64,000 nt of DNA, from NCBI GenBank assembly GCA_002868905.1, contig PKUA01000004.1, positions 1 to 64,000 of the forward strand, in the 5' to 3' direction. Within the stretch, counting starts at the first letter, position 1; each line of letters opens with the position of its first letter. The position numbers and the translations under genes are program-made. This DNA is from Desulfuromonas sp. (GTDB taxonomy: Bacteria; Desulfobacterota; Desulfuromonadia; Desulfuromonadales; Geothermobacteraceae). The notes under the pieces are model-generated. The model made no database searches. It was not told the origin of the DNA and saw only the letters and a list, made by a program, of their open reading frames with translations. Below are positions 18,849 to 49,664 of the stretch, in pieces.

Positions 18849-19703
18849 TTACAAGGGTTGGAAATGGAGGACCTGGTCAAAGACCAGACAGCCCAGGGTG
18901 AGCAGCAGGAAGAGATTAAGTAGTACGAAGCCGCTTCGCCAGTCGCTGCGGGCCAGCATGCGCCATCCTGAAATGGTAAGGATTGGAGCGAGCAGAGTAA
19001 ACAGTGCAACCCCTGGCAGGGATTTAACCTGGCCGGTCAGTGGCAAGGTGACAGTCACGGCGGCAACTGCCAGCAACCAGAGTTGCAGGAGAACGCGGGT
19101 CTGCTCGGGTGACAGGGACGCGGCAAACAGCGGGAGTCCGGCACGTCTGAAGTCGTCACGGTGGTGCAGGACGAACAGCAGGGTGTGCGGAATCTGCCAG
19201 AGCAGGAGCAGGGCGGCAAGACTCCATATGCCAGGCTCGAACAGGCTGCCACCGCCGCAAACCCAGCCGATCACCGGAGGCAAGGCGCCGCACGGGGCTC
19301 CGGCGAAAACGGCAAGAGAGGTCACCCGCTTGAGTGGAGTGTAGACAAGGTTGTAAAACAGCAGGCAAAGCAGCCCGGTAGCGACCGCAATGACATGTCC
19401 GACGGACCACAAAAGGAACAGGGAGCCGAAGCCGAGCACGAGGGAAAATCCGGCGGCTGCAGCAGGGGAGATTTGCCCGGCCGGCAATGGACGGTTTTCG
19501 GTTCGCCGCATTCTGGCGTCGAGATCCCGCTCCTGAATTTGATTGATAATGGTGGCAGCGACGGCAAGCAAAAAAACGCCCGCAGATAGCGATGTCATCG
19601 CGGTCAGAGAGTGTTGCCCGGTACAAAGATAGCCGACCAAAGAGGAAAGCGCTACCAGGGCGGCCGGCCTGGGCCGACACAGTCGGACGAGGATTCGAGT
19701 CAT
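18849..19703 (-). CDS. ctaB: protoheme IX farnesyltransferase (haem O synthase)
   Basis: 284 residues, UbiA prenyltransferase family, with about eight membrane helices. The first Asp-rich site is NQIQERDLDARMRRTENRPLP and the second loop region is HHRDDFRRAGLPL; YTPLKRVTSLAVFAGAPCGALPPVIGW is typical of CtaB/CyoE. It farnesylates haem b to haem O for the oxidase encoded upstream. The start overlaps the stop of ctaC by four bases, so it is the last intact gene of the operon. Haem A synthase (ctaA) is not in the window. Confidence 0.9.
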   Translation of the reverse strand: MTRILVRLCRPRPAALVALSSLVGYLCTGQHSLTAMTSLSAGVFLLAVAATIINQIQERDLDARMRRTENRPLPAGQISPAAAAGFSLVLGFGSLFLLWSVGHVIAVATGLLCLLFYNLVYTPLKRVTSLAVFAGAPCGALPPVIGWVCGGGSLFEPGIWSLAALLLLWQIPHTLLFVLHHRDDFRRAGLPLFAASLSPEQTRVLLQLWLLAVAAVTVTLPLTGQVKSLPGVALFTLLAPILTISGWRMLARSDWRSGFVLLNLFLLLTLGCLVFDQVLHFQPL

Positions 19704-20917
19704 TTCCCGAGTCCCTCAAGGTAATCGATGATCGCCTCGACCTGGTCGGCGGAGAGGTGTCCGTAGGGAGGCATCATCCCCGGGTACCCTTCAACCAGTT
19801 CGGCGGACGGCTCGAGGATGGCGCGTTCGAGGTAGACACGGTCGGCGGTCAGCGAGCGGGTCTCGCCATCGACGCTCACGGTCCTTTGCGCACCGAACAG
19901 TTCTTTGAACGTCGGGCCGACCTTGGAGCTGCCGTCGTCCGAATGACAGCCGAGACAGCCGTTCTGCTGCACCAGGGCGGCACCGTCCGGCTTCGGCTTC
20001 GCCGGCGCAGCGGCTCCGGTCAGGTAGTCGAGAATCTGCACCAGCTCACCCTCTGGTATGCGCCCCTCGTAGCCCGGCATCACCGGTGGGTAGCCCTTGA
20101 CGATATCGTGCCCGGGTTGCAGAATCGAGCGCTCGAGGTAGTCGCGATCCGTAACCAGGGTCTTTTCGACCCCATCCTGCAGAACAGTCGCCTCCCGGCC
20201 GGACAATCCCTTGAAAGTCGGACCGACCATCTGGCTGCCGTCGAGAGAATGGCAGCCGAGGCAGCCGTGCTTGCCGAGCAGTTCACGTCCGAGGTCGGCC
20301 GTCTCGGGGGCGGCCTCCTGGCGAAGCCAGTGCTCGAACTCCTCCGGCGGCAGTGCTTCGATGCTGGTGGTCATATCGGCATGGCCGACACCGCAGTACT
20401 CGGCGCAGAAAATATCGTAGCTTCCCGCTTCCGGGGCGGTGAACCAGACATAATTCTCCATTCCCGGAACCATGTCCCGCTTGACCCGGAACGCCGGGGC
20501 GTAGAAGGCGTGTAGCACGTCGACGGAATGGAGATTGACCTTGACCGGTTGTCCGACCGGCACCCGCAATCGGTTGCTGGTCTGCCCCCCGGCGTATTCG
20601 AAGGTCCAGGACCACATTCGGGCGGTGGCCGAGATCTCAAGTGCGCCCTCGGGCACATTGCGCAGCGTGAGGAAGCTGGCCCAGCCGAAGTAGAACATCG
20701 CCAGGACGATCAGAGTCGGAATGACCGTCCAGACCACTTCGAGGCCGAGGTTGTGATCGACATCCGATGTCGGCTCCGGCTGCCGGGAGCGGTGGTAGCG
20801 GATGATGAAATAGATCATGGCGATGGTGATGCCGACCAGCATCACCAAGGAGATCCCCAAGATGAAAATGAAGACGGGATCGATCGCTTCCTGGGTTGTC
20901 ACCAGACTCGGGTTCAC
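19700..20917 (-). CDS. ctaC: cytochrome c oxidase subunit II with two fused cytochrome c domains
   Basis: 405 residues. Two membrane helices (about 14-40 and 60-85) precede the cupredoxin domain. The CuA site is complete: His in SVDVLHAF, then Cys171, Cys175, His179 and Met182 in FCAEYCGVGHADM. Two tandem c-type domains follow, CLGCH at 219-223 and 321-325, each with MVGPTFK- or KVGPTFK-like repeats and a downstream PxMPGY/PGMMPPY Met ligand. Ordinary caa3 subunits have one such domain; the second looks like an internal duplication. It accepts electrons from periplasmic cytochromes. Confidence 0.93.
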   Translation of the reverse strand: MNPSLVTTQEAIDPVFIFILGISLVMLVGITIAMIYFIIRYHRSRQPEPTSDVDHNLGLEVVWTVIPTLIVLAMFYFGWASFLTLRNVPEGALEISATARMWSWTFEYAGGQTSNRLRVPVGQPVKVNLHSVDVLHAFYAPAFRVKRDMVPGMENYVWFTAPEAGSYDIFCAEYCGVGHADMTTSIEALPPEEFEHWLRQEAAPETADLGRELLGKHGCLGCHSLDGSQMVGPTFKGLSGREATVLQDGVEKTLVTDRDYLERSILQPGHDIVKGYPPVMPGYEGRIPEGELVQILDYLTGAAAPAKPKPDGAALVQQNGCLGCHSDDGSSKVGPTFKELFGAQRTVSVDGETRSLTADRVYLERAILEPSAELVEGYPGMMPPYGHLSADQVEAIIDYLEGLGK

Positions 20918-20926
20918 GTCAGTTCC

Positions 20927-21214
20927 TCACCGGTAGAGCACATCGAAGAAAGTAAAGCCGATAAAGATCGCCAGGGTCAACAGGGCGACCAGCAAAAAAA
21001 CCTGGAACAGCGGTTTTTCGTACTTCATGTGCATGAAGACTGCAATCACCAACGACGACTTGACCGAAGCAATGCCGAGGGCGACCCAGATGTTAAGCTC
21101 TCCAAGGTCGATCTGGGCGGCTGCGACGGTGATAGCGGTCAGGATCAGCAGTGCAAGCCAGACCGCGATCAGCACCGGGTAGCCGATGATATGTCCCTTG
21201 TCGTGTTCACTCAT
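20927..21214 (-). CDS. ctaF: cytochrome c oxidase subunit IV
   Basis: 95 residues with three membrane helices; GIASVKSSLVIAVFMHMKYEKPL is the family signature of prokaryotic caa3 subunit IV. It lies between subunits III and II at 9- and 18-base gaps. It stabilises the complex and has no known redox centre. Confidence 0.9.
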   Translation of the reverse strand: MSEHDKGHIIGYPVLIAVWLALLILTAITVAAAQIDLGELNIWVALGIASVKSSLVIAVFMHMKYEKPLFQVFLLVALLTLAIFIGFTFFDVLYR

Positions 21215-21232
21215 GGCAACTCGCTTCGTCCG

Positions 21233-21832
21233 TTACAGGACCAGGTAGTAGAGCGGGAACAGGAAGATCCAGATCAGGTCGACCAGGTGCCAGTAGAGCC
21301 CTGCATTCTCCAGGGTTACGAAGTCGTCCCCGTTGACTTTGCCGGAGCGGACCAGGAACATGACCCAGGTCAGGATCCCCGCACCGATCAGCACGTGCAG
21401 ACCGTGCAGGCCGGTGGTCAGGTAGTAGAGACCGAAGAAAACCGACTCGCCCGGCGGGCCTTCTTGCAGGGACGGCGCCCCCGGGTAGATGCCGTGGTGG
21501 ATCTTGGCGCTCCACTCGAAGTATTTGTTGACCAGAAACAGCAGCGCCATGGCGATGGTGGCAACGAGCAGCTTTACGCATAAAGACCTGTTGCCACGTT
21601 GCAGGGCTGAGATCGACATCGCCACCGTCAGGCTACTGGTCAGCAGCACCAAGGTGTTGCCGCCGCCGAACCAGACATTGAGCTCACCGCCGCCGGTGAT
21701 GAATTCCTGTGGGTAGCGGTTGAGGTAGACCCCGTAGAGGATGAACAGTCCACCGAACAAAATCAGCTCAGTGAACAGGAACAGCCACATGCCGAGCTTG
21801 GCCCCGGTGTAATCCTTGTGTTGCTCAGTCAT
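21233..21832 (-). CDS. ctaE: cytochrome c oxidase subunit III
   Basis: 199 residues with five membrane helices: GMWLFLFTELILFGG, then FFGLYYLTTGLHGLHVLIG and a C-terminal YWHLVDLIWIFLFPLYY. All are diagnostic for haem-copper oxidase subunit III. The start overlaps the stop of ctaD by eight bases. The length fits the short five-helix form found in caa3 enzymes. Confidence 0.93.
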   Translation of the reverse strand: MTEQHKDYTGAKLGMWLFLFTELILFGGLFILYGVYLNRYPQEFITGGGELNVWFGGGNTLVLLTSSLTVAMSISALQRGNRSLCVKLLVATIAMALLFLVNKYFEWSAKIHHGIYPGAPSLQEGPPGESVFFGLYYLTTGLHGLHVLIGAGILTWVMFLVRSGKVNGDDFVTLENAGLYWHLVDLIWIFLFPLYYLVL

Positions 21833-23459
21833 CGGCGCGCACCCCCGCCTGTTTGAAATCGTACGGGCCGTGAGTCACGATCGGTTCTTCGGTAAAGTTC
21901 TCCAGCAGCGGCGGTGTCGCCGTCGCGGTCCACTCCAGGCTCGCCCCGCCCCACGGGTTGGTGCCGAACGGCTTGCCGCGGAACAGTCCGTAAAAGACAT
22001 TGGCGAACATCAGCAGCAGGCCGGCGGCCAGCACCCAGGAGGAGATCGTCGCCAGCAGGTTGAGATCGGCGAACTTCGGCACGTAATCGTAATAGCGGCG
22101 CGGCATCCCCTGCATGCCGAGAATCTGCATCGGCATGTAAAGGAAGTTGAAACCGATGAACATCAGGCCCCAGGCCCAGAGAGCGACCTTCTTGTTGTAT
22201 GTCCGGCCGTAGTATTTCGGCAGCCAGTAATGCATGGCGGCGAAGAAAGCGAAGCCGGTCCCGCCGAACATGACGTAATGAAAGTGCCCGACGACGAAGT
22301 AGGTGTCATGTACGTGTACGTCGGTCCCCGGGGCACCGAGGATCAGGCCGCCGAGGCCGCCGATGGAGAAGAGCAGGACGAAGGAGAGGGCGTAGACCAT
22401 CGGCGGGTCGAGCCGGATCGATCCTTTGTAGAGGGTGGAGACCCAGTTGAACACCTTGATCGCCGATGGGATGGCGACGATGAAGGTGAGCAGGGAGAAA
22501 ACCAGCACCGCCATGTCCGACATGCCACTGGTGAACATGTGATGTCCCCAGACCAGGGAGCCGGCTGCGGCGATGGCGATGGATGAGATGGCGATCGCCT
22601 TGTAGCCGAAAACCGGCTTACGGGCGAAGACCGGTATGATGTCGGAGATCACCCCCATCGCCGGCAGGATCATAATGTAGACCGCCGGATGAGAGTAGAT
22701 CCAGAACAGGTGCTGGTACATGATCGGGTCCCCGCCACTGGCCGGGTCGAACAGCCCGGTCCCAACCAGGCGTTCCGCCATGATCAGCACCAGGGTGATG
22801 GCAAGTACCGGCGTCGCCAGCACCTGCACCCAGGCGGTGGCGTAGAGCGACCAGGTGAAGAGCGGCAGTCGGGTCCAGGTCATGCCCGGCGCCCGCAGGC
22901 GGTGAACGGTGGTCAAAAAGTTCATGCCGGTCAGGATGCCGGAGAAGCCTAAAATGAAGACCGCGAACACCGCCAGGGAGACGTTGGTGGTGGTCCGGGT
23001 CGAGAACGGCACGTAGAAGGTCCAGCCGGTGTCTGGTGCGCCGCCCGCGGTGAACAGGGAAACCAGAGCCAACGTTGCCCCGATGGCGTAGAACCAGAAC
23101 GAGGCGAGGTTGAGACGGGGGAAAGCGACGTCTTCGGCGCCGATCTGGATCGGCATCACCAGGTTGCCGAAGGCCGCCGGCACGCCGGGGATGATAAACA
23201 GGAAAATCATGATCACCCCGTGCAGGGTGAAGGTGGCATTGTAACGCTGGGCGCCGAGGAAGTTGACTCCCGGCGCGATCAACTCCAGCCGGATCAGCAG
23301 GCCGAGCATCACCCCGACCAGGAAGAAGATGACGATCGACCAGAAATACATCAGGCCAATCCGCTTGTGGTCGGTGGAGAAAATCCAGGCCGCCAGGCCG
23401 CTCCGACCGCCGCTGTTGTCCCAGAACCCGCGCCCGGAGGTCGCAGTAACATCGCTCAT
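21825..23459 (-). CDS. ctaD: cytochrome c oxidase subunit I (A2-type)
   Basis: 544 residues; the start at 23459 (MSDVTATSG) lies just after the sco stop. Twelve membrane helices. Ligands are visible: His in FTLHGVIMIF, CuB His and the cross-linking Tyr in YSHPAVYI, the His pair in WGHHMFTSG, and the haem His residues in HDTYFVVGHFHYVMFGG. The D-channel Glu of A1 oxidases (HPEVY) is replaced by YSHPAV, the mark of A2-type enzymes such as those of Thermus and Rhodothermus. It reduces oxygen and pumps protons, so the organism has some oxygen-respiring or oxygen-detoxifying ability. Confidence 0.95.
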   Translation of the reverse strand: MSDVTATSGRGFWDNSGGRSGLAAWIFSTDHKRIGLMYFWSIVIFFLVGVMLGLLIRLELIAPGVNFLGAQRYNATFTLHGVIMIFLFIIPGVPAAFGNLVMPIQIGAEDVAFPRLNLASFWFYAIGATLALVSLFTAGGAPDTGWTFYVPFSTRTTTNVSLAVFAVFILGFSGILTGMNFLTTVHRLRAPGMTWTRLPLFTWSLYATAWVQVLATPVLAITLVLIMAERLVGTGLFDPASGGDPIMYQHLFWIYSHPAVYIMILPAMGVISDIIPVFARKPVFGYKAIAISSIAIAAAGSLVWGHHMFTSGMSDMAVLVFSLLTFIVAIPSAIKVFNWVSTLYKGSIRLDPPMVYALSFVLLFSIGGLGGLILGAPGTDVHVHDTYFVVGHFHYVMFGGTGFAFFAAMHYWLPKYYGRTYNKKVALWAWGLMFIGFNFLYMPMQILGMQGMPRRYYDYVPKFADLNLLATISSWVLAAGLLLMFANVFYGLFRGKPFGTNPWGGASLEWTATATPPLLENFTEEPIVTHGPYDFKQAGVRADD

Positions 23460-23466
23460 AATACCC

Positions 23467-24399
23467 TCAATGCTTCCGTTTTTTTCGCCCGCCGAAAGCG
23501 AGCGCGGCGAACAGTCCACCGGCGAGAAGGAGAACCGCCACCCCGCTGACCTGCAGGATGTTGAAGACGTACCCTTTTTTCTCCGGGTCGTAGCTGAAGC
23601 AGAGGCTCGCCAGACGGCGCACGGTGCTGCCGACCTTCCCCTCACCGGCTTCCATCAAGGCCAGGGTGACATCCATCGGCAGGTAACGGGTGCCGTAGAG
23701 ATAGCGGGTGATGGTGCCGTCGCTGTTCACCACGGCGACCACCACCGGGTGTACGAAATCGACCCCGACCCGGAAGAAGCGGTAGCCGAGAGCATCCATC
23801 AACCGGTCGATCTCCGGTTTTCCCCCGCTGATGAAGTGCCATCCCTGCTCGGGGAAAGCCCCGTGCATGGCCGCCCGGTAGATTTTTTCACTCGCCCTGG
23901 CGTCCTTCGGGGTCTCGGTCTCATCGAAGCTGACCGAAACCACCCGGTATTCGTCAGGCTTCAGGTCGAGTTTGCCGAGGACATCAGCCAGTCCCCCCTG
24001 GAGAAAATTGCAGACATTCGGGCAGCGGTAGTAGACCGGGGCGATGATGGTCGGTCGGTCGACCAGGTCGGCGAGGGTGACGGCACGTCCATCCTCGTCG
24101 ACAAACGGCAGATCGAGCGGAATTTTTGCGCCAAGTTTCTCCTCGACCTCCGCTTTCTGGTCGGTCGCGACCGGATGCACATGAGGCTGGGAGTCTTCTT
24201 TGCCCTCCATGGCATGGGGGGCGCCATGGTGCTCCATCTCCTCGTGCTGGCCCGTGTCGGCTTTCGCAGGGTCGGCCATGTGGTGCTGATGGGCCCCCGC
24301 TGATTTTGATTCCTCAGCGTGGTCCATGGCTGCCGGCAGGAGCGTCGGGCACGCCAGGAACATGAAAATGATGGATATAAGGGTGAGGTTTTTTTTCAT
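23467..24399 (-). CDS. SCO1/SenC-family copper chaperone, tail-anchored
   Basis: 310 residues. A signal peptide is followed by a His/Met-rich stretch (EESKSAGAHQHHMADP, MEHHGAPHAMEG) that could bind copper. The thioredoxin-like core has the copper/thiol motif YRCPNVCNF and the conserved distal His in DFVHPVVV. A C-terminal membrane helix (VSGVAVLLLAGGLFAALAF) anchors it. It delivers copper or reduces the CuA site of the oxidase encoded seven bases downstream. The His-rich insert and C-terminal anchor are less usual than the N-terminally anchored form. Confidence 0.88.
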   Translation of the reverse strand: MKKNLTLISIIFMFLACPTLLPAAMDHAEESKSAGAHQHHMADPAKADTGQHEEMEHHGAPHAMEGKEDSQPHVHPVATDQKAEVEEKLGAKIPLDLPFVDEDGRAVTLADLVDRPTIIAPVYYRCPNVCNFLQGGLADVLGKLDLKPDEYRVVSVSFDETETPKDARASEKIYRAAMHGAFPEQGWHFISGGKPEIDRLMDALGYRFFRVGVDFVHPVVVAVVNSDGTITRYLYGTRYLPMDVTLALMEAGEGKVGSTVRRLASLCFSYDPEKKGYVFNILQVSGVAVLLLAGGLFAALAFGGRKKRKH

Positions 24400-35067: not shown

Positions 35068-38000
35068 TCAATCCAAAAAACCGACCCAATCGACGGTCAC
35101 CGTCGGCACGTCGAACTCCGCTTCGACCTTCCCCTTGAGCAGGTAGGGGCGGGGCAGACCGAGCTGGCGGCAGTAGCGGTCATAGATAGCCGGGAAAAAG
35201 GTTGTTTCGTAGATTGCCGACTCGTCTTCGAAGGTGATGAATTGCATCGGCTGGTCGTGTTTGGTCTGCACGGTTTTCCCGGTGACCCACCAGCCGGCCA
35301 GAGTAATCCGCTTGCCGACCCGGCGCGGGATCTCCCGCGCCGGAATGGCTCCGGCGGCGAGGATGGCGTCGCGCCAGGGGGCCAGTGGGTGCTCCGTAGG
35401 AACGAACCCGAGCACCTCTTGCTCCTGCCGGTGTCGCTCCCGTTCGTCCAGCGGCGGCAACGTCGGTCCGGAGTCGACTGTCACGCCGAAGTTGAGACTG
35501 CCGGATGTGTGCTGCCGTTCGGCGGCAAGGGCTTGCCAGAGCAGCTCAGGGCGGCGTTCGGGCGCTTCGATCCGGTCGAAGCAGCCAGATTTGATCAAGG
35601 TCCGAACCTGGTCCGTCGGCAGGGAGGTTCGCACCAGAACGTCGGCGAAAGAGGTAAACGGCCCTTGTCGTTCCCTCTCGCGGATTAGCTCCTGCAGGTC
35701 GTTCTGGCGTAATCCCGCAACCTGCATCAGGCCGATCCGGACTTCTCTGCCACGGCCGGTGTACTGCCAGTCGCTGGCGTTGATGTCGGGCGGGGTGATG
35801 ACGAGGCCGAGGCGCCGACACTCGGAGAGGTAGGCGGAGGCGGAATAATATCCTCCCTGATTGCTGATCACCGCCGCCATGAACTCGGCCGGGTAGTTCG
35901 CCTTGAGCCAGGCCGATTTGCAGCTGACCAGAGCGTAGGATGCGGAGTGCGGCTTGCAGAAGGAGTAGCCGCCGAAGGAGAGAATCTGCTCCCAGACCTC
36001 GTCGAGCAGCGGTGTTCCCAGTCCGTTGTCTCTTCCCCCGGCGTAGAAGCGCTGGCGGTAATCCTCCAGGTTCTTCCCCTTGTGCTTATAACTGATGATT
36101 TTGCGCAGTTGGTCGCCGTGGTAGGGGTCGAAACCGGCCAGTGCCATCGCCATCTGGGTGATCTGCTCCTGGTAGACCGCTATACCGTAGGTCTCGGCGA
36201 GTACCGGATCGAGCAGTGGGTGCAAGGAACGCCACGGCTTGCCCCGCATGCGGGCGACGAATTCGAGGATGAAACGGTTGGCGGCCGGCCGGATAATCGA
36301 GCTGGCCATCACCAGATGCTCGAACAGGGCGTCCGGGGAGATGCCCGCGCCTGTTTCCGGTCCGAACATCCGGCGTAGCAGCTGGCGGGTGGCGGGCGAC
36401 TCGATGTAAAAGCAGCCCATGCTGGCGCCGCGACAGAGCAGTTCGCGGGTGGTCGGGTCGTCGAGCGGCCGCCAGGCGCCGTAGTCGATCCGGTTGCCGG
36501 TGTTGTGTTCGATGGCGGCCAGCGCGTCGCGGATCACCGCCAGGGAGCGGTTGCCGAGCAGGTCGATTTTGACCAGTCCGGCCATCTCCGCCTGATCCTT
36601 TTCCCACTGGATGACCGGCAGCCCCTTGGCGCTGACTTCGATCGGGACATGGTTGCGGATCTCGTCCGGAACGATCACCAGGCCGCCGCAATGCAGGCCG
36701 AGATGCCGAAGCTGCCGTCGCATCCGGGCCGCGATGCGCAAAATGAGCGGCCAGTCCCCCTGCAGGGTTTCGCCGCGGAACAAGGGGTGTTCATTGATCG
36801 CCGCCAGGGCCTGAGAAGCTCGCCAGTAGCCGGAGATGCGACGGGTTACCTGTTTGATCTCCAGGGCCGGAACGCCGAAGACCTTGGCGACCTCGCGCAG
36901 GGCCGAGCGCCCTTTGTAGCCGATCTGGTTGGCGACCATGGCGGCACGCTGCGCGCCGTAACGGGCAAAGGCGGCATCGAGAACACGGTCCCGCTCGTCC
37001 CAGGGGAAGTCGACGTCGATGTCGGGGTGGTCGAGACGGCCCGGATTGAGAAACCGCTCGAAGAAGAGGTTGAAGCGTAGCGGGTCGACATGGGTGATGC
37101 CGAGGGAGTAGGCGACCAGAGAGGCGGCGGCACTGCCGCGACCGCAGGTCCGCGGGGAGTGGCGGACCAGCTCGGCCACCACCAGGAAATAGTGGGCGAA
37201 CTGCTTGTCGCGGATGATGGCGAATTCTTTGCGTAACCGGTCGCGGATCGCCGTATCGACCTGGCCATAGCGTCGTTTCGCCCCTTCCAGTGTGCGTCGC
37301 TGTAAGTGAAACAGGGCCCGGCTGTCACGCATGTCGCGATAGCGGGGAAAGATAGTGGCGGGGTTGTCCCAGTCGGCCGCGCAGCGGTCGGTGATCCTGG
37401 CGCAGTTGGCGATAGCGTCCGGGCAGTGGGGGAAGCGCTCCTGCACCTGTTCCGGGTTGAGAAAGCGGTCGCTGCGGGTGGCGTGGGTGGCCGGATCGAG
37501 CTGATCGAGGGTGGTGTTGCCGGCGATGGCTCGCAGCACGCGGTGCAGGTCGAAATCGTCATCGGCGAGCAGCACCGACCGGCAGGTGGCGACCGGCGGG
37601 AGGTCGAGTTGCCGGGCGAGGCGGAGCGCGGCGTGCATCTGGTGACCGGGTGAAAGTTCGACGTAGAGTTCCCCTTTGCAACTGGGGCGGAGGGTTTGCA
37701 GCAGCTGCGGGTGGTCACTGAAGATGACCATGCCCTGGCGGTGGTGAAGCAATCCCGCAGCCAGGTCGAAGGCGGGATCACAGTGCAGCTTCGAGATGAG
37801 GTGGCAGAGGTTCGCGTAGCCGGTCCGGTTCATCGCCAGGGCCACGGCCCGCATGGAGCCATGAACCAGTTCACTGCCGACCAGCGGTGAGATATTGTGC
37901 TCCCGGGCGGCCCGGAGGAAGTGCGGGATACCGTAAAGGCCGTTGCGGTCGGTCAGGGCGAGGTGGCGCATGCCGGCGTCACGGGCGCAGCGACACAGTT

Positions 38001-38070
38001 CGTCCGGGGTGTGAATCCCCCAGTTGGGGGAGTAGCAGGAGTGCACGTGCAGGTGGGCAAACATGCTCAT
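35068..38070 (-). CDS. dnaE2: error-prone DNA polymerase DnaE2 (ImuC)
   Basis: 1000 residues. The N-terminal PHP domain starts HLHVHSCYSPNWGIHTPDEL and has LALTDRNGLYGI. The polymerase palm has the catalytic acids in PDIDVDFPWDERD. EQITQMAMALAGFDP and SYALVSCKSAWLKANYPAEF are C-family motifs, and an OB domain ends the chain. The length matches DnaE2/ImuC, shorter than replicative DnaE. Its start overlaps imuB by four bases. It performs translesion synthesis in the SOS response. Confidence 0.92.
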   Translation of the reverse strand: MSMFAHLHVHSCYSPNWGIHTPDELCRCARDAGMRHLALTDRNGLYGIPHFLRAAREHNISPLVGSELVHGSMRAVALAMNRTGYANLCHLISKLHCDPAFDLAAGLLHHRQGMVIFSDHPQLLQTLRPSCKGELYVELSPGHQMHAALRLARQLDLPPVATCRSVLLADDDFDLHRVLRAIAGNTTLDQLDPATHATRSDRFLNPEQVQERFPHCPDAIANCARITDRCAADWDNPATIFPRYRDMRDSRALFHLQRRTLEGAKRRYGQVDTAIRDRLRKEFAIIRDKQFAHYFLVVAELVRHSPRTCGRGSAAASLVAYSLGITHVDPLRFNLFFERFLNPGRLDHPDIDVDFPWDERDRVLDAAFARYGAQRAAMVANQIGYKGRSALREVAKVFGVPALEIKQVTRRISGYWRASQALAAINEHPLFRGETLQGDWPLILRIAARMRRQLRHLGLHCGGLVIVPDEIRNHVPIEVSAKGLPVIQWEKDQAEMAGLVKIDLLGNRSLAVIRDALAAIEHNTGNRIDYGAWRPLDDPTTRELLCRGASMGCFYIESPATRQLLRRMFGPETGAGISPDALFEHLVMASSIIRPAANRFILEFVARMRGKPWRSLHPLLDPVLAETYGIAVYQEQITQMAMALAGFDPYHGDQLRKIISYKHKGKNLEDYRQRFYAGGRDNGLGTPLLDEVWEQILSFGGYSFCKPHSASYALVSCKSAWLKANYPAEFMAAVISNQGGYYSASAYLSECRRLGLVITPPDINASDWQYTGRGREVRIGLMQVAGLRQNDLQELIRERERQGPFTSFADVLVRTSLPTDQVRTLIKSGCFDRIEAPERRPELLWQALAAERQHTSGSLNFGVTVDSGPTLPPLDERERHRQEQEVLGFVPTEHPLAPWRDAILAAGAIPAREIPRRVGKRITLAGWWVTGKTVQTKHDQPMQFITFEDESAIYETTFFPAIYDRYCRQLGLPRPYLLKGKVEAEFDVPTVTVDWVGFLD

Positions 38071-39230
38071 GCCGATACGGTCGCGAGGGCGCGTCCGCGC
38101 TGCACGATCTGCAAGCCGTATTTGCTCCGCAACTGGTCGAGTCCCTCCTGGAGCATGCTGTGCCGGCTTCGGGGGGCATCGAACAGGGAGAGTTGCGTCG
38201 GTGACAACAGTTCAAGGCAATCGAATCGCATGGCGCGAACCTGGGTGCGTCGCTCCCGGCATGTCTGCAGCAGACTGTCGGCGGCGATGAGCAGGATGGA
38301 ATCATCACAGGTCGGCGGCGTAAGTTGGAGGGTGCGGCAGTGGTTGACCCCGTCGATGTAATCGAGACAGAGCTGCAGTTTCTGACAGGAGAGCCGACGT
38401 TGCCGCAACAGCAGGCCGCACTCCTCGACCTGGCGACAGAGTTCGGCCTGCAGCAACAGCTCGCTGTTGGTTGAACGGGGGAGAATGCTGCCGGCGTTGA
38501 TCCGGGGTTGTGTACGACGCGGTGTTACCGGGGAAAAATCGATTCCGCGGGCTCGTTGGTACAACAGGGGGGCGAACGGTCCGACGACCGGAGCGAGCTG
38601 GGGGAGATCGAGCCGGGCCAGTTCGCTGATCTGGCGGAGGTTCAGTTCGTCGAGCAGGGTCCGCTGTCGTTTGTGGCCGATCCCCGGCAGCAGGGTGATC
38701 GGCAGCGGGGCAATGAACGCACCTTCGCTGCCGGGGAAGACGTCGCAGACTCCCGGGCGATGCAGGTAGCCGGCGGCGATGCGAGAGACCAGCTTGTTGC
38801 CGGCGACGCCGACCTGGCCGTCGAGGCGGAACCGCTGCCGGATATCGCGGTCGAGCCGGGCGGCGGCGTCGCGCCCCGGACCGAGCAGGCGGCTGCTGCC
38901 GCTCAGGTCAAGGAACAGGCGGCCGCCACCGGCCGGTTCCCAGACCGGGGTGTAGTCGCCGACCAGACGTTCCAGGGCCTGGCTGGCGCGACCCAGCAGC
39001 ACGGGGTCGGGCAGCAGCAGTTGCAGGCGGGGGCAGCGGCGCAGGGCGCGATGCAACGGCATCCCCGGCCAGACCCCGTCCTGTTCCGCCTCGGCCGAGG
39101 CGGCGACGAGAAGGGCCCGGTCCGAATGGGCGGGCGCGATGGCGACCGGCCGTTCGCGCAACTCGGGGCGCGCGACCCGGGCGACGGCGATCGGAAAACG
39201 GGGAATAGCGAGATGGAGAATGGCAGGCAT
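38067..39230 (-). CDS. imuB: ImuB-like Y-family polymerase homologue
   Basis: 387 residues, Y-family fold but with catalytic acids missing: the usual D-M-D-A-F-F opening is replaced by LAIPRFPIAVAR and the second acidic pair by FLDLSGSS (Asp without the following Glu). The helix-hairpin-helix LPGIGHKRQRTLLDEL is kept. A clamp-binding QLSLF occurs near the C-terminus (PTQLSLFDAP). This is what is expected of ImuB, an inactive hub tying DnaE2 to the beta clamp. It sits between lexA and dnaE2. Confidence 0.88.
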   Translation of the reverse strand: MPAILHLAIPRFPIAVARVARPELRERPVAIAPAHSDRALLVAASAEAEQDGVWPGMPLHRALRRCPRLQLLLPDPVLLGRASQALERLVGDYTPVWEPAGGGRLFLDLSGSSRLLGPGRDAAARLDRDIRQRFRLDGQVGVAGNKLVSRIAAGYLHRPGVCDVFPGSEGAFIAPLPITLLPGIGHKRQRTLLDELNLRQISELARLDLPQLAPVVGPFAPLLYQRARGIDFSPVTPRRTQPRINAGSILPRSTNSELLLQAELCRQVEECGLLLRQRRLSCQKLQLCLDYIDGVNHCRTLQLTPPTCDDSILLIAADSLLQTCRERRTQVRAMRFDCLELLSPTQLSLFDAPRSRHSMLQEGLDQLRSKYGLQIVQRGRALATVSA

Positions 39231-39250
39231 GACGGCACCGGCGGTGGATT

Positions 39251-39856
39251 TCAGGCGCAGTGACGGATAACCCCGACCACCACTCCTTCGATCTGCAGGT
39301 CGGTATCGGCAGGAACGATCAGGGGTTGCAGGGTCGGGTTGGCCGGGTGGAGTTCGACGCGGTCCCCGCGGTGTTGTAACCGCTTGACGGTCGCCTCTCC
39401 GTCGAGCAGGGCGACGACGATCTGCCCGTTGGTGGCAGTCGCCTGCTTGCGTACCACGACGTAGTCGCCGTCGAGGATGCCGTCGCCGATCATAGAATCT
39501 CCCATGACCCGCAGCACGAAGTGCTCGCCCGTCCCGACCATGGAGGCGGGGATGTCGAGGGTGTCAGGCGTGGTGATTGCCTCGATCGGTCGGCCGGCGG
39601 CGACTGTGCCGACCAGCGGCAGCTCAAGTGAGCCGCTTCTGGTCCGTGATGCGGCCGGGCGGAGGGAGCGGCGGGCGTTCCAGTCACGTTGCAGGTGGCC
39701 GCCACGTTGCAGGCGAACCAGGTAGTTCTGCACCGTGCCGAGAGAGCGGAAGCCGAAAGCGTCGGCGATCTCCTGCTGCGACGGTGCGTAGCCGTGCCGG
39801 TCGCGGAAGCCGGTAATAAAGTCGAGCAGTTGTTTTTGTTTCGGGGTGAGCGACAT
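39251..39856 (-). CDS. lexA: LexA repressor of the mutagenesis cassette
   Basis: 201 residues. N-terminal winged helix (YAPSQQEIADAFGFRSLGTVQ), cleavage site Ala-Gly in GTVAAGRPIEA, catalytic Ser in VMGDSMIGDGI and Lys in GEATVKRL. All autocleavage parts are present. It is the first gene of the lexA-imuB-dnaE2 operon, 20 bases before imuB, and probably represses it through the direct repeat just upstream. The genome may hold another LexA. Confidence 0.92.
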   Translation of the reverse strand: MSLTPKQKQLLDFITGFRDRHGYAPSQQEIADAFGFRSLGTVQNYLVRLQRGGHLQRDWNARRSLRPAASRTRSGSLELPLVGTVAAGRPIEAITTPDTLDIPASMVGTGEHFVLRVMGDSMIGDGILDGDYVVVRKQATATNGQIVVALLDGEATVKRLQHRGDRVELHPANPTLQPLIVPADTDLQIEGVVVGVIRHCA

Positions 39857-43019: not shown

Positions 43020-43048
43020 AAAAAAGCCCCCGGAATTTTCCGGGGGCT
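43020..43048 (-). terminator. intrinsic terminator of the octaheme cytochrome operon
   Basis: AGCCCCCGG (43025-43033) pairs with CCGGGGGCT (43040-43048) around AATTTT. On the minus strand it is followed by TTTTTT. It lies 26 bases after the cytochrome stop. Confidence 0.88.
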
Positions 43049-43073
43049 TCGGTTTTTTGCGGGTACCAGACTG

Positions 43074-44237
43074 TTACCAGCTGCTCTCGAGGTCGGAGAG
43101 GATTTTCTTAAAATCGGCCCGAACCGAATCAAGGATGGTGCTGGCATACTCGCGGTTGTGAACACCACTGGTTCCGTCGTTGCGGACCAGTTTCAGGTTG
43201 AACAGCGCTTTCTGGTAGCGTTCCCAGGCCCCTTTGGTGTCGCGCTTGCGGGCATCGGCACCACGCAGCGCCTCTTCGACCTCGACGCGCATTTCACGCA
43301 AGCCGGCGATCTCCTTGGCAGTCGAGGACGACCAGTCATCAAAGATCTCGACATATTCGGCTTCGTGGCAGTCGGTGCAGGACTCTTTGGACGGGCGGTA
43401 GAGACCCTGATCTACGGCAGTGTGGCATTCCTGGCAGCCGATACCGGCTCCCCACATCAGACCCTCTTCGCCTTCAACTCCCTTGGCGCCGACCCCGCGG
43501 TTCATGTCGTATTGGGCTTCGTGGCATCCCTGACAGTCAGCCATCTGCGGGGCGCTGCTCCCCTCGTTCTCCTGGTGGCAGGTGACACACTTGTTCATCC
43601 GGTCAGTCTTGGTGCCGGGCTGATGCACCAGGCCGAAATGGCAGTCGCCGCACTTAAACTCGAAATTCTCGATATGCATCGCATGGTCGAATTGGGTGCC
43701 GCCGACGTAGGTATCGGCCATGATGTCGGGCAGACCCTTGTGCTCGCGGAACTCCGGGTTCTTGACATCGTCGAGCATCCGCATCTTGACGATCTTCATC
43801 AACTTGACCTTCTTGCGGTACTCCTGGTTCCCCTCGTCAGAGTGGCAGAAAAGGCAGTGTTGATCCGGGACCAGGTGCTCGGAATCAGGGTTGGCGAGGA
43901 TCTCAAGTTTCTCCTCTTTGGAGATGGTCAACTGCATATAGGTGTCTTTCAGACCACCGAGCTTCGCTTTCATGTAGCCGACTACCCCGGGGCGTCCGTG
44001 ACAGTCGAGGCAGGAGACGCCGGCGTCGCCGTGGGCCGAGTGCTCCCAGGAGTCGACCTCGGCCAGCGGACCGAAGCCCTTGGCCGGATGGCACATGTGG
44101 CAGAATTCCGGTTCGGAGGTCATATGCAGGATCTGCACGTTGACAAAACCAAAAACGGTCATCAATACGACGCAGATGATCGTGACGAGAACAATGTGTC
44201 GTTTACACCAGGCGAAAAAATCTTTGATGGAAGCCAT
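43074..44237 (-). CDS. octaheme NapC/NrfH-like membrane-anchored cytochrome c
   Basis: 387 residues from ATG 44237 (MASIKDFFAWCKRHIVL). One N-terminal membrane helix (about 14-36) anchors it. Eight CXXCH motifs follow, from CHMCH at 46-50 through CLDCH, CLFCH, CGDCH, CVTCH, CQGCH, CQECH to CTDCH, then a haem-free helical tail of about 100 residues. The opening part fits the NapC/NirT/NrfH quinol dehydrogenases, which have four or five haems; eight plus a long tail is larger than those. It may take electrons from the NrfD module encoded upstream and pass them to periplasmic cytochromes such as the c7 protein. Confidence 0.85.
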   Translation of the reverse strand: MASIKDFFAWCKRHIVLVTIICVVLMTVFGFVNVQILHMTSEPEFCHMCHPAKGFGPLAEVDSWEHSAHGDAGVSCLDCHGRPGVVGYMKAKLGGLKDTYMQLTISKEEKLEILANPDSEHLVPDQHCLFCHSDEGNQEYRKKVKLMKIVKMRMLDDVKNPEFREHKGLPDIMADTYVGGTQFDHAMHIENFEFKCGDCHFGLVHQPGTKTDRMNKCVTCHQENEGSSAPQMADCQGCHEAQYDMNRGVGAKGVEGEEGLMWGAGIGCQECHTAVDQGLYRPSKESCTDCHEAEYVEIFDDWSSSTAKEIAGLREMRVEVEEALRGADARKRDTKGAWERYQKALFNLKLVRNDGTSGVHNREYASTILDSVRADFKKILSDLESSW

Positions 44238-44458: not shown

Positions 44459-44644
44459 TCAGGAGGTAAAGCGCTCACTCATCCAGGCGATGACCGGCCA
44501 GGCGACGAGGGTCAGGGTGCAGGTAACGAATAGAGTGAAAACCAGGGTCAGGGTCGCGAGCCAGAAACGGGCCAGCGGGTTGTGGGTTCGACTTTCGGTG
44601 ATCCCCTGGGTCATGGATAATGTACGTGCAGTCGCGCTTGTCAT
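44459..44644 (-). CDS. single-TM micropeptide, third paralogue
   Basis: 61 residues: a polar N-terminus (about 20), then THNPLARFWLATLTLVFTLF and VTCTLTLVAWPVIAWMSERF. This aligns with the two tandem proteins at 47564 and 47777: NP-x-A-x-x-WL-x-x-LT-x-VF-x-LF-x-TCTL-x-LVAWPV-x-AW is shared by all three. One membrane helix, conserved Cys and Pro within it. The upstream ribosome site is weak and ATG 11 codons downstream is an alternative start. It lies between the triheme and octaheme cytochromes, which suggests a structural subunit or assembly factor. Confidence 0.8.
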   Translation of the reverse strand: MTSATARTLSMTQGITESRTHNPLARFWLATLTLVFTLFVTCTLTLVAWPVIAWMSERFTS

Positions 44645-44694: not shown

Positions 44695-45084
44695 TCAATG
44701 ATGAGCCGGTCCCTCTTCGTTGACCAGGCCGTGAGCCCGGCTGTAACCAATGACGCCAACGTGGCAGGTAGTGCAGCGTGTGTTGGCGTCGTAGGCGGTG
44801 TCGCCATCGTGGCAGGCGCCGCAGAACTCGCCGTCGGCCAGACCGGCCATGGTGAAGCTCTCCTCGTTCTCGGCCAGGCGGGCTTCCATTTCGAAAATGC
44901 CGTCGTGGCAGCTGTCGCAGTCCATGCCGTTGTCCTCGACGTGGAGTTGGTGGCTGAAAACCACGCCGATCACCGGTTTCATGTAATAGATGTCCTCGGG
45001 ATAATCCCCCTCGGCAAGTGTGGTAGCGGCACCCGCCAGCAGAAAGATCGAACTGCAGAGGATGGTGGTTAGGATCAGGCGCAT
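44695..45084 (-). CDS. periplasmic triheme cytochrome c3-like protein
   Basis: 129 residues from ATG 45084, behind AAGGAGGACATAACA. Signal peptide ending near ATTLAEG. Three CXXCH motifs (CDSCH, CGACH, CTTCH) with extra His in IGVVFSHQLHVEDNGMDC typical of class III haem spacing. A His-rich end (GPAHH). The position just after the ferredoxin gene suggests it takes electrons directly from the Fe-S subunit or pairs with the octaheme protein. Confidence 0.88.
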   Translation of the reverse strand: MRLILTTILCSSIFLLAGAATTLAEGDYPEDIYYMKPVIGVVFSHQLHVEDNGMDCDSCHDGIFEMEARLAENEESFTMAGLADGEFCGACHDGDTAYDANTRCTTCHVGVIGYSRAHGLVNEEGPAHH

Positions 45085-45113: not shown

Positions 45114-45866
45114 TCAACCGCGGGTGTAAAATACGTTTGGTTTGGTTCCGGCTTGCGGACGCAGGACCCAGACGGTCTTGGTCATCTGGTGTACTTCCTT
45201 GTAGACCCGGTCGGATGGGTTCGACAGGTCACCGAAGATACGCACGCCGGCAGGGCATGCTTCGGAACAGCCGGTGGTTTTCGCTCCCTTGCTCAGGCGC
45301 GATTCCCAGCAGAAGGTACATTTGTCAACCGCCCACTTCTCTTCGTTGAAATAACGGGCGTTGTAGGGGCAGCCGAGCTGGCACGACAGGCAGCCGATAC
45401 ATTTTTCGATGTTCATCATAACGATGCCGTTGTTCGGGTCTTTGTAGGTCGCCTTGGTCGGGCAGACCCGTGTGCACTGTGCCAGGTTGCAGTGGTTGCA
45501 CAGCACCGGGATGAACTCCCGCTGCTGGTCGAGAGCGCCGGCCACCTGGCGTTCGAGGATGTTGGTGCGGAATCCATAGCTCGGAACGCCGTTGGTCTCG
45601 GCGCAGGCGCTTTTGCACTTTTCGCAGTCGATGCAATTTTCGATGTGCATGATCATGCTGTAGTGCGGTTTGTAGGGATATTTCTCGACGAAACCCGAGG
45701 TCGAGGCGTAGACCTTGTTGACGGAGGAGACCGCCGAGAGGATGGTCCCGCCGGCGAAGACGCCGGTCACGGTCAACCCCATTTTCAGGAAGTGACGCCG
45801 CTCTTCGACCGAGCAGTTGTCAACGCCCTCGTTGGTCATTTTGTCAAGATTCTTAAGGTTTTTCAT
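45114..45866 (-). CDS. periplasmic four-cluster ferredoxin subunit (NrfC/DmsB-like), Tat-exported
   Basis: 250 residues. A Tat-type signal is seen at RRHFLKMGLTVTG, though the leading region is long and starts about residue 23. Four 4Fe-4S sets follow: CIDCEKCKSAC, CNHCNLAQCTRVCP, CIGCLSCQLGCP and CTFCWES...CSEACP. This is the electron-transfer partner of NrfD in polysulfide reductase, Nrf and Qrc-like complexes. It lies 51 bases after the nrfD-like gene. Confidence 0.9.
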   Translation of the reverse strand: MKNLKNLDKMTNEGVDNCSVEERRHFLKMGLTVTGVFAGGTILSAVSSVNKVYASTSGFVEKYPYKPHYSMIMHIENCIDCEKCKSACAETNGVPSYGFRTNILERQVAGALDQQREFIPVLCNHCNLAQCTRVCPTKATYKDPNNGIVMMNIEKCIGCLSCQLGCPYNARYFNEEKWAVDKCTFCWESRLSKGAKTTGCSEACPAGVRIFGDLSNPSDRVYKEVHQMTKTVWVLRPQAGTKPNVFYTRG

Positions 45867-47205: not shown

Positions 47206-47556
47206 TCAACCGATTTCATGGGCGACCTCCCGCGTGGCCAGGTTTTTGTTCAACTGATGCAGGAGCGTGTCGGGTTCCTCATCAACGCCGCAGAGTAGTT
47301 CGATTCCGCAGGTTGTGTATTCATCTTCGTCGGGAACCGCGCTGTCGGAGCAGGCGAGAACCCCGACACCTTGTTCCGCCAGCCAACGTGCCAGGCTTGG
47401 CTCGATGGCTGGGTTCCAGACTTCCAGTTGCAGGGCTGGTTCTGTTTCATCATCCGGAGTGCCAATGAAAAAGATCCTGCTCAATCCGTTCTGCGAGGTG
47501 TGCAAGGACCCGTAATACGGGACGGCAAGGTTGCACTGTTGCAGCTCGGTGGTCAT
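47206..47556 (-). CDS. NifX/NafY-like small protein
   Basis: 116 residues beginning MTTELQQCNLAVPYYGSLHTS. The layout fits the dinitrogenase Fe-Mo cofactor-binding family (NifX, VnfX, NifB C-terminus): LAVP strand, a middle strand with EVWNPAIEPSLARWLAEQGVGVLAC and then GIELLCGVDEEPDTLLHQL. The substrate-binding His of that family is not evident. No nif gene is nearby. In an electron-transfer operon it may bind a metal cluster or regulate assembly; the call is structural only. Confidence 0.6.
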   Translation of the reverse strand: MTTELQQCNLAVPYYGSLHTSQNGLSRIFFIGTPDDETEPALQLEVWNPAIEPSLARWLAEQGVGVLACSDSAVPDEDEYTTCGIELLCGVDEEPDTLLHQLNKNLATREVAHEIG

Positions 47557-47563
47557 AAGGACA

Positions 47564-47746
47564 TCAGCCTCCCAGACGGGCGCCGAGCCATGCGAGGACC
47601 GGCCAGGCGACCAGAACCAAGGTGCAGGTTGCGAAGAGGGCGAATACGACGGTCAAGACGCCGAGCCACACATTCGCCATCGGGTTGCGTTCGGCCTTGG
47701 CAGGAGCGTTAGCGGCAATGGTTTGTTGGTTTTGAGTCGCGGACAT
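47564..47746 (-). CDS. single-TM micropeptide, tandem paralogue 2
   Basis: 60 residues, ATG 47746 behind AAAGGAGGACAGCC. Polar N-terminus SATQNQQTIAANAPAKAERN, then NPMANVWLGVLTVVFALFAT and CTLVLVAWPVLAWLGARLGG, one membrane helix with Cys. About 85 percent identical to the next gene at protein level over the helix, and nearly identical in DNA from about 47581 to 47705 against 47799-47923. A recent tandem copy. The helix has a conserved W-P/W pair facing one side. Confidence 0.85.
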   Translation of the reverse strand: MSATQNQQTIAANAPAKAERNPMANVWLGVLTVVFALFATCTLVLVAWPVLAWLGARLGG

Positions 47747-47776
47747 GGCTGTCCTCCTTTCAATTCTTTATCTGGA

Positions 47777-47956
47777 TTAGCCCTGGAAGTTCGCGCCGAG
47801 CCATGCGAGGACCGGCCAGGCGACCAGAACCAGGGTGCAGGTTGCGAAGAGGGCGAATACGACGGTCAAGACGCCGAGCCACACATTAGCGATCGGGTTA
47901 CGTTCGGTTTTGGCCGGAGCGTTCATTGCGATTGTGTTGGTGTCGTTGCGAGTCAT
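47777..47956 (-). CDS. single-TM micropeptide, tandem paralogue 1
   Basis: 59 residues from ATG 47956, preceded by AAGGAGGACACC; an earlier GTG in frame lacks a ribosome site and falls in the promoter. Sequence MTRNDTNTIAMNAPAKTERN then NPIANVWLGVLTVVFALFAT and CTLVLVAWPVLAWLGANFQG. It is the first gene of the operon, 35 bases after a -24/-12-like box. No known family; length, single helix and repeated presence among respiratory genes suggest an accessory subunit of the complex. Confidence 0.85.
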   Translation of the reverse strand: MTRNDTNTIAMNAPAKTERNPIANVWLGVLTVVFALFATCTLVLVAWPVLAWLGANFQG

Positions 47957-47990: not shown

Positions 47991-48007
47991 TCCAAGAGGC
48001 GTACCAA
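47991..48007 (-). promoter_or_regulatory. sigma-54-like promoter of the respiratory operon
   Basis: On the minus strand TTGGTACGCCTCTTGGA compares with YTGGCACGRNNNTTGCW. The GG at -24 and spacing are right; the -12 GC is GG and the -22 C is T, so it is a weak match. It lies 35 bases before the ATG at 47956. An enhancer-binding activator gene directly upstream supports the reading. Confidence 0.45.
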
Positions 48008-48105: not shown

Positions 48106-48122
48106 TGTTGCAGGGTGCAACA
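48106..48122. promoter_or_regulatory. candidate activator site TGTTGCA-N3-TGCAACA
   Basis: TGTTGCAGGGTGCAACA is a perfect 7-bp inverted repeat with a 3-base spacer. It lies about 115 bases upstream of the -24/-12 box, the usual distance for an enhancer-binding protein. The same motif (one base different at the end, plus spacer) lies before the activator gene at 49637-49653. Confidence 0.6.
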
Positions 48123-48240: not shown

Positions 48241-48276
48241 TGTTGCAGAAGTGTTGCGTTTGTTGCTAATGCAACA
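48241..48276. promoter_or_regulatory. TGTTGC repeats and palindrome between activator gene and operon
   Basis: TGTTGC occurs at 48241, 48252 and 48261, the last as TGTTGC-TAAT-GCAACA (48261-48276). Spacings are 11 and 9 bases, near one helical turn. It could be a second, weaker binding cluster for the same activator. Confidence 0.4.
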
Positions 48277-48285
48277 TGGCATTCG

Positions 48286-49611
48286 CTAGAGAATATCAAG
48301 CTTCTTCATCCAGCGCCAGAGGGTTGTGCGTTCGATACCGAGTTCCTTGGCAACCATGGTCCGATTGCCGTCGAATTGCTTCAGCAATTCGAGCAAGGTG
48401 TCCCGGTCGGGGCGACGATGAGAGAGACGGGCGGCTGGGGGGAGTTTTTTCGGGCTGAGGATCGATGCGGAGAGATGTTCCAGACCGACCTCTCCTTCAC
48501 GGCAGAGAATGACGGCTTGCTCAACGATGTTCATCAGTTCCCGGATGTTGCCGGGGAAATCGTACTTGATCAGTTTCTGCAGCGCTTCGGGCGAGAAGCC
48601 CCGAACGTGTTTGCCATATTGCTTGTTGAATCGGTCGACTGCCATGTCGATCAGCAGGGGGAGGTCGTCGTAGCGTTCCCGCAGCGGCGGGAGGGCGAGG
48701 GTGATGACGTTGACCCGGAAGTAGAGGTCTTGGCGGAAGGTGCCGGCCTGGACCATCTGCTCCAGGTTGCGATGGGTGGCGGTGACGAACCTGACGTCGG
48801 CTGTCTGGGGTTGCTTGGCCCCGAGGGGCTGAAATTCCCGATTCTCCAGCACCCGCAGCAGCTTGACCTGCAGCGGCAGCGGCAGGTCGCCGATCTCGTC
48901 AAGAAATAAAGTTCCACCCTGAGCCATCTCGAGGCGGCCGGGGCGGTTTTCCACCGCGCCGGTGTAGGCGCCGCGTTTGGCACCGAAAATCTCCGCCTCA
49001 AGCAGTTGTTCCGGTAGCGCGCCGCAGTTAACCACCACCAGTGGTCCTTGCTGGCGACTGCTCAATTCGTGCAGAGCCTTGGCGACCAGCTCCTTGCCGG
49101 CTCCGCTCTCTCCCTGGATTAGCACGGTTGCTTCGCTGGCGGCGACATCCGGGAGTTTTTCGAACAGCCGCCGCATGGCCGGATTACGGCTGACCATGCC
49201 ATGGAAATTGTATTTGCGCCGTGCCACGATCCGCTCGGGGTGAAATTCGGAGAAATCGCGAATGATCGCCACGGCGCCGACGGTATTGTCCTGACCGTCG
49301 AGTACGGTCGAAGCGGAGATGGCGACGTGGTGTTTGCGCCCGTCCCGATCGAGGATGTCCATCTCCCGGTTAAGGACCGGCTTGTGGGTCGCCATGGTCT
49401 CTCGGATCGGACAGTCGGTATCACAGATGCTGGTGCGCAGAACGTCGTGACACGGCTTGCCGACCACGTCGGTCGCATTGAAACCGGTGATCTTCTCGAC
49501 CGCCGAGTTGAAGGCGGTAATCTTAAACTGTTGATCCACGGTATAAATCCCGTCGGCCAACGCTTCCAGAATCTGGGCCTGGTGACCGGGGGGGAGATGA
49601 CTGAAAGGCAT
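48286..49611 (-). CDS. PAS-containing sigma-54 enhancer-binding regulator
   Basis: 441 residues, ATG 49611 after GAGGAG. PAS domain at about 10-125 with Cys54, Cys63 and Cys67 in CHDVLRTSICDTDC, which could ligate a metal or sense redox. The AAA+ domain has Walker A GESGAGK (167-173), the sigma-54 loop GAYTGA (214-219, usual GAFTGA with Phe to Tyr) and Walker B LFLDEIGD (235-242). The C-terminus has the Fis-type helix-turn-helix (MVAKELGIERTTLWRWMKKL). No receiver, so it works without a kinase. It likely activates the operon downstream and itself. Confidence 0.92.
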   Translation of the reverse strand: MPFSHLPPGHQAQILEALADGIYTVDQQFKITAFNSAVEKITGFNATDVVGKPCHDVLRTSICDTDCPIRETMATHKPVLNREMDILDRDGRKHHVAISASTVLDGQDNTVGAVAIIRDFSEFHPERIVARRKYNFHGMVSRNPAMRRLFEKLPDVAASEATVLIQGESGAGKELVAKALHELSSRQQGPLVVVNCGALPEQLLEAEIFGAKRGAYTGAVENRPGRLEMAQGGTLFLDEIGDLPLPLQVKLLRVLENREFQPLGAKQPQTADVRFVTATHRNLEQMVQAGTFRQDLYFRVNVITLALPPLRERYDDLPLLIDMAVDRFNKQYGKHVRGFSPEALQKLIKYDFPGNIRELMNIVEQAVILCREGEVGLEHLSASILSPKKLPPAARLSHRRPDRDTLLELLKQFDGNRTMVAKELGIERTTLWRWMKKLDIL

Positions 49612-49626: not shown

Positions 49627-49664
49627 CTGTTTCATTTGTTGCAGATTGCAACGACTTGAAACAG
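49627..49664. promoter_or_regulatory. nested palindrome upstream of the activator gene
   Basis: Outer arms CTGTTTCA (49627-49634) and TGAAACAG (49657-49664) enclose TGTTGCAGATTGCAACG (49637-49653). Both share nearly the same centre. It ends 16 bases from the activator start codon, so binding here should block or tune its own transcription. Confidence 0.6.

Follow-up and report, generated by a model that had tools for sequence, protein, structure and literature searches.

Why does a respiratory gene cluster of a Desulfuromonas species carry three copies of a gene for a very short membrane peptide, two of them nearly identical and in tandem, and does the near-identity of their membrane helix reflect recent duplication, selection or another process? 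We addressed these questions in a 64,000-nt stretch of contig PKUA01000004.1 (hereafter the window), starting from an original prediction that was made from the letters and open reading frames. The three genes are referred to as sp1, sp2 and sp3, and all features are listed in Table 1.

Three sp genes in a quinone:cytochrome-like cluster

On the minus strand, a gene for a PAS-domain sigma54 activator is followed by sp1, sp2 and the genes for a 116-aa protein (p116), an NrfD-like membrane subunit, an FeS subunit and a triheme c7-type cytochrome, and then by sp3 and an octaheme cytochrome gene. Because no molybdoenzyme was found among the scanned cluster genes, the gene content appears to be that of a quinone:cytochrome module and not of a reductase. 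The position of sp3 after the c7 gene is that of sp in the operons of the related genomes G001-G004. G001, G003 and G004, the nearest relatives, each have one sp gene after the c7 gene, yet in sequence that gene resembles sp1 and sp2.

Table 1. Features of the sp cluster (positions in the window; features in descending order of position).
Feature	Position	Strand	Remarks
Third palindrome	49637..49653	.	1 mismatch; just upstream of activator gene
PAS-domain sigma54 activator (enhancer-binding protein)	48286..49611	-	PAS, Sigma54_activat, HTH_8
Second palindrome	48261..48276	.	TGTTGCTAATGCAACA
Palindromic upstream activator site, predicted	48106..48122	.	TGTTGCAGGGTGCAACA; 99 nt from -24 element
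sigma54 -24/-12 element	47991..48007	-	TTGGTACGCCTCTTGGA; ~35 nt upstream of sp1; significant within composite motif
sp1	47777..47956	-	59 aa, single-TM; first gene of cluster; AGGAGG Shine-Dalgarno upstream
Homogenised block in sp1	47793..47923	-	Repeat comparison and synonymous-site counts
sp2	47564..47746	-	60 aa, single-TM; tandem partner of sp1
Homogenised block in sp2 (helix-coding DNA)	47580..47710	-	Repeat comparison and synonymous-site counts
116-aa protein (p116), distant kin of Nitro_FeMo-Co/NifX-like proteins	47206..47556	-	hhalign probability 83%, E 9e-6
NrfD-like membrane subunit, 405 aa	45918..47135	-	PF03916 E 2e-24
FeS subunit, DsrO/TtrB-like ferredoxin domains	45114..45866	-	Domain matches
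Triheme c7-type cytochrome	44695..45084	-	Domain matches
sp3	44459..44644	-	61 aa; diverged third copy; downstream of c7 cytochrome gene
Octaheme cytochrome, NapC/NirT anchor and c7 domains	43074..44237	-	Domain matches
Intrinsic-terminator-like hairpin	43023..43050	-	Strong; 3' of octaheme gene; likely operon end

Repeat family comparison paired 47580-47710 with 47793-47923 at 95% identity over 131 nt and placed a third copy at 44475-44605, within sp3, at 62% identity. Both sp1 and sp2 encode NVWLGVLTVVFALFATCTLVLVAWPVLAWLGA and sp3 retains TCTLTLVAWPVIAW, in agreement with the predicted diverged copy at 44459. The near-identity that had been predicted over about 125 bases was also recovered, but with a 5-nt slip in the second copy: 47581-47705 pairs with 47794-47918 at a register offset of 213 nt (118/125 identical), whereas 40/125 positions match against the predicted 47799-47923 (offset 218). 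The sp reading frames look like genes: strong AGGAGG Shine-Dalgarno sites were read directly 5' of sp1 and sp2, codon-usage scores are positive, and each of the four related genomes from the same taxonomic family has homologues. Single-sequence AlphaFold modelling of sp2 residues 1-59, which confirms a helix only, placed it at residues 21-57 with a mean pLDDT of 74.

Elsewhere in the same assembly, the search for close sp copies returned a 38-aa diverged reading frame and two contig ends. Contigs C50 and C83 (L015 and L016) open with the same 99 nt and then diverge; the shared stretch ends an sp2-like gene whose last 11 aa are identical to those of sp2, so that at least two more sp copies seem to have fallen into assembly gaps. 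The 38-aa member, LLSWPFIAWLASLRA (C48:22352-22459; L017 8344-8460), lies beside a cold-shock-like gene and resembles a 35-aa reading frame in G118:C69.

Two other minus-strand regions of the window were noted by eye. Adjoining DnaE2-type polymerase-, ImuB- and LexA-like genes at 35068-39856 possibly form an SOS mutagenesis cassette, and a haem-copper oxidase-like cluster at 19700-24399 includes a CoxB-like protein with two extra cytochrome c domains.

Uneven divergence of sp1 and sp2

Over the helix region, sp1 and sp2 have no amino-acid changes and 3.0 changes in 27.3 synonymous sites, whereas their ends are synonymously saturated (12.2 of 17.7 sites changed; Fisher p=2e-4 for helix vs ends). 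Protein-level selection does not yield such a contrast at synonymous sites, and fast protein evolution leaves dS unraised. Because the helix synonymous sites are nearly unchanged and those of the ends saturated, the pattern argues for a homogenised DNA segment rather than for selection acting between the pair, and its simplest reading is that gene conversion or segment copying recently homogenised the helix segment within an older pair. A recent duplication of the whole gene, with ends that diverged fast afterwards, would agree with the 95% identity of the block and with the similar Shine-Dalgarno sites of the two genes; it is at odds with the saturated ends, which fast protein evolution would not produce, and we consider it improbable. 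Of the recent tandem duplication in the original prediction, what stands is a helix-coding segment that is recent or homogenised, within a pair that appears older. Homogenisation was not general for the A/B pairs within genomes of the f3 genera (p=0.18).

Since the synonymous sites of the block are also nearly unchanged, the conserved helix of this pair, from which selection had been predicted, is no proof of selection. Comparisons outside the pair nevertheless bear the claim out: sp1 and its G004 orthologue have a dN of 0.106 and a dS of 1.72 over the helix, and in G241 the helices of a pair of tandem paralogues have 12 of 30 synonymous but 1 of 81 nonsynonymous sites changed. These orthologues and paralogues indicate that purifying selection on the helix is real, with a dN/dS that does not approach one. 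The sp1/sp2 pair is a warning that helix conservation between tandem copies may stem from DNA homogenisation and not from selection.

A family of single-helix proteins

The sp genes belong to a family of 45-65-aa proteins with one helix and the pattern [AG][WY]P-x-x-A-[WYHF], or a close variant, near the C-terminus. Of the genomes searched with profiles, 43 of 121 in the order and 44 of 200 in the class contained sp, and the order set used for the NrfD and CbcL counts below comprised 88 sp loci, 35 of which are tandem, spread over 46 genomes. Neither Pfam nor NCBIfam has a model for the family, and no description of it was found in a literature search that had most subscription papers outside its reach; the family and its regulon are new here. 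More lysine and arginine residues lie N-terminal to the helix in 92 of 103 members, and these charges suggest that the N-terminus is cytoplasmic and that the short C-terminal tail with its W-P kink is probably periplasmic.

In a protein tree built from 48 columns, a length that limits support, one member of the f3 pairs grouped, with good support, in a clade separate from the other member, and G117 and G118 had triples that corresponded position by position. Because of this separation and correspondence, the heterotypic arrays appear to be old, with pairs and triples mostly ancient.

Electron-exit oxidases as neighbours of sp

Searches from the neighbouring genes showed that sp lies within 5 kb of 14 of 18 close NrfD homologues (50% identity or more, one of the 18 partial; 0.09 expected) and of none of 25 distant ones (p=4e-8). 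Four relatives of the same subfamily had no sp nearby, and no convincing sp was found with more distant NrfD homologues of other phyla. Starting from CbcL-like genes, sp was found within 10 kb of 24 of 86 (0.46 expected), about 60 of these genes in the order having no sp nearby; the genomes are related, so that both the NrfD and the CbcL counts are of non-independent events. The CbcL-like neighbours have nine CXXCH motifs and about six transmembrane helices, as described for CbcL (PMC9129911). Among the f3 genera, frequent neighbours of sp are a second NrfD module and ImcH-like genes, the latter (PF03264, E 2e-6) likened by description to ImcH, a multiheme NapC/NirT protein of about 490 aa.

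Cluster membership and class-wide synteny thus support the predicted respiratory micropeptide with a single transmembrane helix. The predicted NrfD-like partner fits the 14 of 18 modules, but with CbcL-like and ImcH-like oxidases also as neighbours, partnership may be wider. If sp were a structural subunit dedicated to the NrfD-FeS-cytochrome complex, copies elsewhere would be relics. The frequent presence of sp in modules of this NrfD subfamily, often within the gene cluster, speaks for such a role, but where this NrfD is missing from a genome or locus, sp arrays still occur with CbcL-like or ImcH-like genes and with a sigma54 promoter of the arrays' own, and stand-alone copies are conserved and not decayed. 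We regard this reading as unlikely.

A composite sigma54 motif

The -24/-12 element, the upstream activator site and the activator gene expected of a sigma54-dependent operon are all found in the sequence at sp1. Taken by itself, the sigma54 consensus shows no significant excess in the window (153 matches vs 150 expected). The composite motif that precedes sp1 consists of TGTTGC-N4/5-GCAACA and, after about 99 nt, TGGCAC-N5-TTGGA. In the 868 kb of loci that were fetched, it occurred 22 times, each time upstream of an sp unit (22/22; shuffle mean 0.2), a measure of specificity inside loci that had been chosen for containing sp. An unbiased count is given by the strict motif in 277 genomes, with 35 matches vs 1 for the reversed control. 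Most of the 35, by gene names assigned by eye, precede sp or p116-family genes, some precede NifX-like/Mrp-like gene sets (G045, G107 and G110), and a few, such as one before a ClpB-like gene, look like chance. The motif was absent from the sp loci of the f3 genera. The third palindrome, before the activator gene, suggests possible autoregulation. The composite motif defines a regulon that is open to immediate testing.

At two loci, L179 and L181 (in G028 and G037), a composite sigma54-like motif stands before a ClpB-like gene and no sp was found in either genome; these motifs are either chance matches or another target of the activator.

The close tie of sp to this motif and to p116/Nitro_FeMo-Co-like genes would also suit peptides that act more generally in membrane stress or signalling as part of a redox regulon, have Nitro_FeMo-Co- or orange-protein-like partners and do not bind oxidases. 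The motif before NifX-like/Mrp-like gene sets points the same way, as do the orp operons of D. vulgaris, which excerpts of the published account describe as sigma54-controlled and equipped with palindromic activator sites (PMC3897727). The repeated synteny of sp with several kinds of electron-exit oxidase argues against this role, which we judge quite unlikely.

Cassettes of the promoter plus two sp genes have been duplicated (L124/L125, L111/L112, L113 and L122) with no obvious insertion sequence. Near-identical copies lie at unrelated loci (e.g. 97% over 457 bp and 100% over 531 bp), several of them away from any respiratory gene. L124 and L125 cease to match close to the second stop codon, beyond which their terminator-like sequences differ. 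Such dispersed cassettes (97-100% identical), as well as draft contigs ending at sp genes, could be explained by hydrophobic peptides that are selfish or resemble type I toxins. This reading is very improbable, because sp is conserved inside respiratory clusters and subject to sigma54 control and strong purifying selection, because its heterotypic pairs are ancient, and because a plasmid search gave no sp match and the region no Rfam RNA.

Proposed role of the sp peptides

Our preferred explanation, to which as a whole we give a probability of roughly 0.55, is that the sp proteins are co-regulated and serve electron-exit quinol oxidases, the membrane complexes through which electrons leave these cells, as accessory helices; by analogy with TorE/NapE, the accessory-helix role is the most likely and best-supported reading. 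The PAS-type sigma54 activator would bind TGTTGC-N5-GCAACA and fire the promoter at 47991-48007, giving what may be a single operon mRNA that begins with sp1-sp2. The peptides would insert beside quinol-oxidising electron-exit complexes of the inner membrane (NrfD-FeS-c7-NapC8 here, CbcL-like and ImcH-like enzymes at other loci) and lend stability to their anchoring or assembly as TorE/NapE does for TorC/NapC. Tandem heterotypic copies would be an old habit of the family, and homogenisation of the sp1/sp2 helix segment a recent event in this genome. The spread of the family, the synteny with NrfD, CbcL and ImcH types, the motif, the selection on the helix, the lysine and arginine bias and the TorE precedent support this explanation; against it count the cassettes away from respiratory genes, the CbcL-like and NrfD genes without sp, the f3 loci without the motif and the presence of three unrelated oxidase types among the neighbours, which would be odd if sp were a dedicated subunit.

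More speculatively, one sigma54 regulon across the class of Geobacter/Desulfuromonas-type bacteria might supply interchangeable heterotypic helix adapters to several unrelated quinol oxidases (NrfD type, CbcL-like and ImcH-like), the supply of peptide helping to set which inner-membrane exit is used; we hold this extension to be tentative and, as it stands, unlikely. The family is a concrete, testable candidate component in the choice and assembly of Geobacter-type inner-membrane electron exits.

Comparison with known systems

Terminal oxidases have micropeptide subunits, CydX among them, which serve respiratory complexes as short accessory proteins with a single helix. The sp proteins are likewise short single helices, but their cluster has no cytochrome bd gene and they gave no profile match.

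In excerpts of the account of the D. vulgaris orp operons, these are served by the sigma54 activator DVU2106, have palindromic sites upstream, one of them at -88, and include Nitro_FeMo-Co-type proteins (PMC3897727). A sigma54 promoter, upstream palindromes and Nitro_FeMo-Co-type proteins are therefore shared with the sp cluster, in a comparison of layout and not of site sequences, whereas single-helix peptides and electron-exit oxidases, as in the sp cluster, are not mentioned in those excerpts (PMC3897727).

TorE/NapE proteins (PF06796) have about 56 aa and one helix, are conserved only in the hydrophobic stretch, and are encoded beside a NapC/NirT-type multiheme cytochrome, the anchoring of which they are reported to reinforce while raising efficiency (PMC6134056). 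Membership of sp in this family was rejected: PF06796 had no match among 32 sp family members at E<=1 or at sp loci, the best match in the same genome, at another place, reached 11.8 bits against a cut-off of 25, and the cluster genes scanned include a NapC/NirT octaheme cytochrome but no molybdoenzyme. The sp proteins differ from TorE/NapE in their conserved W-P residues, their tandem arrays, their sigma54 motif and their additional location beside CbcL-like and NrfD genes. They resemble TorE/NapE in small size, a single helix and a gene near a NapC/NirT-type multiheme cytochrome; TorE/NapE is their nearest experimental precedent.
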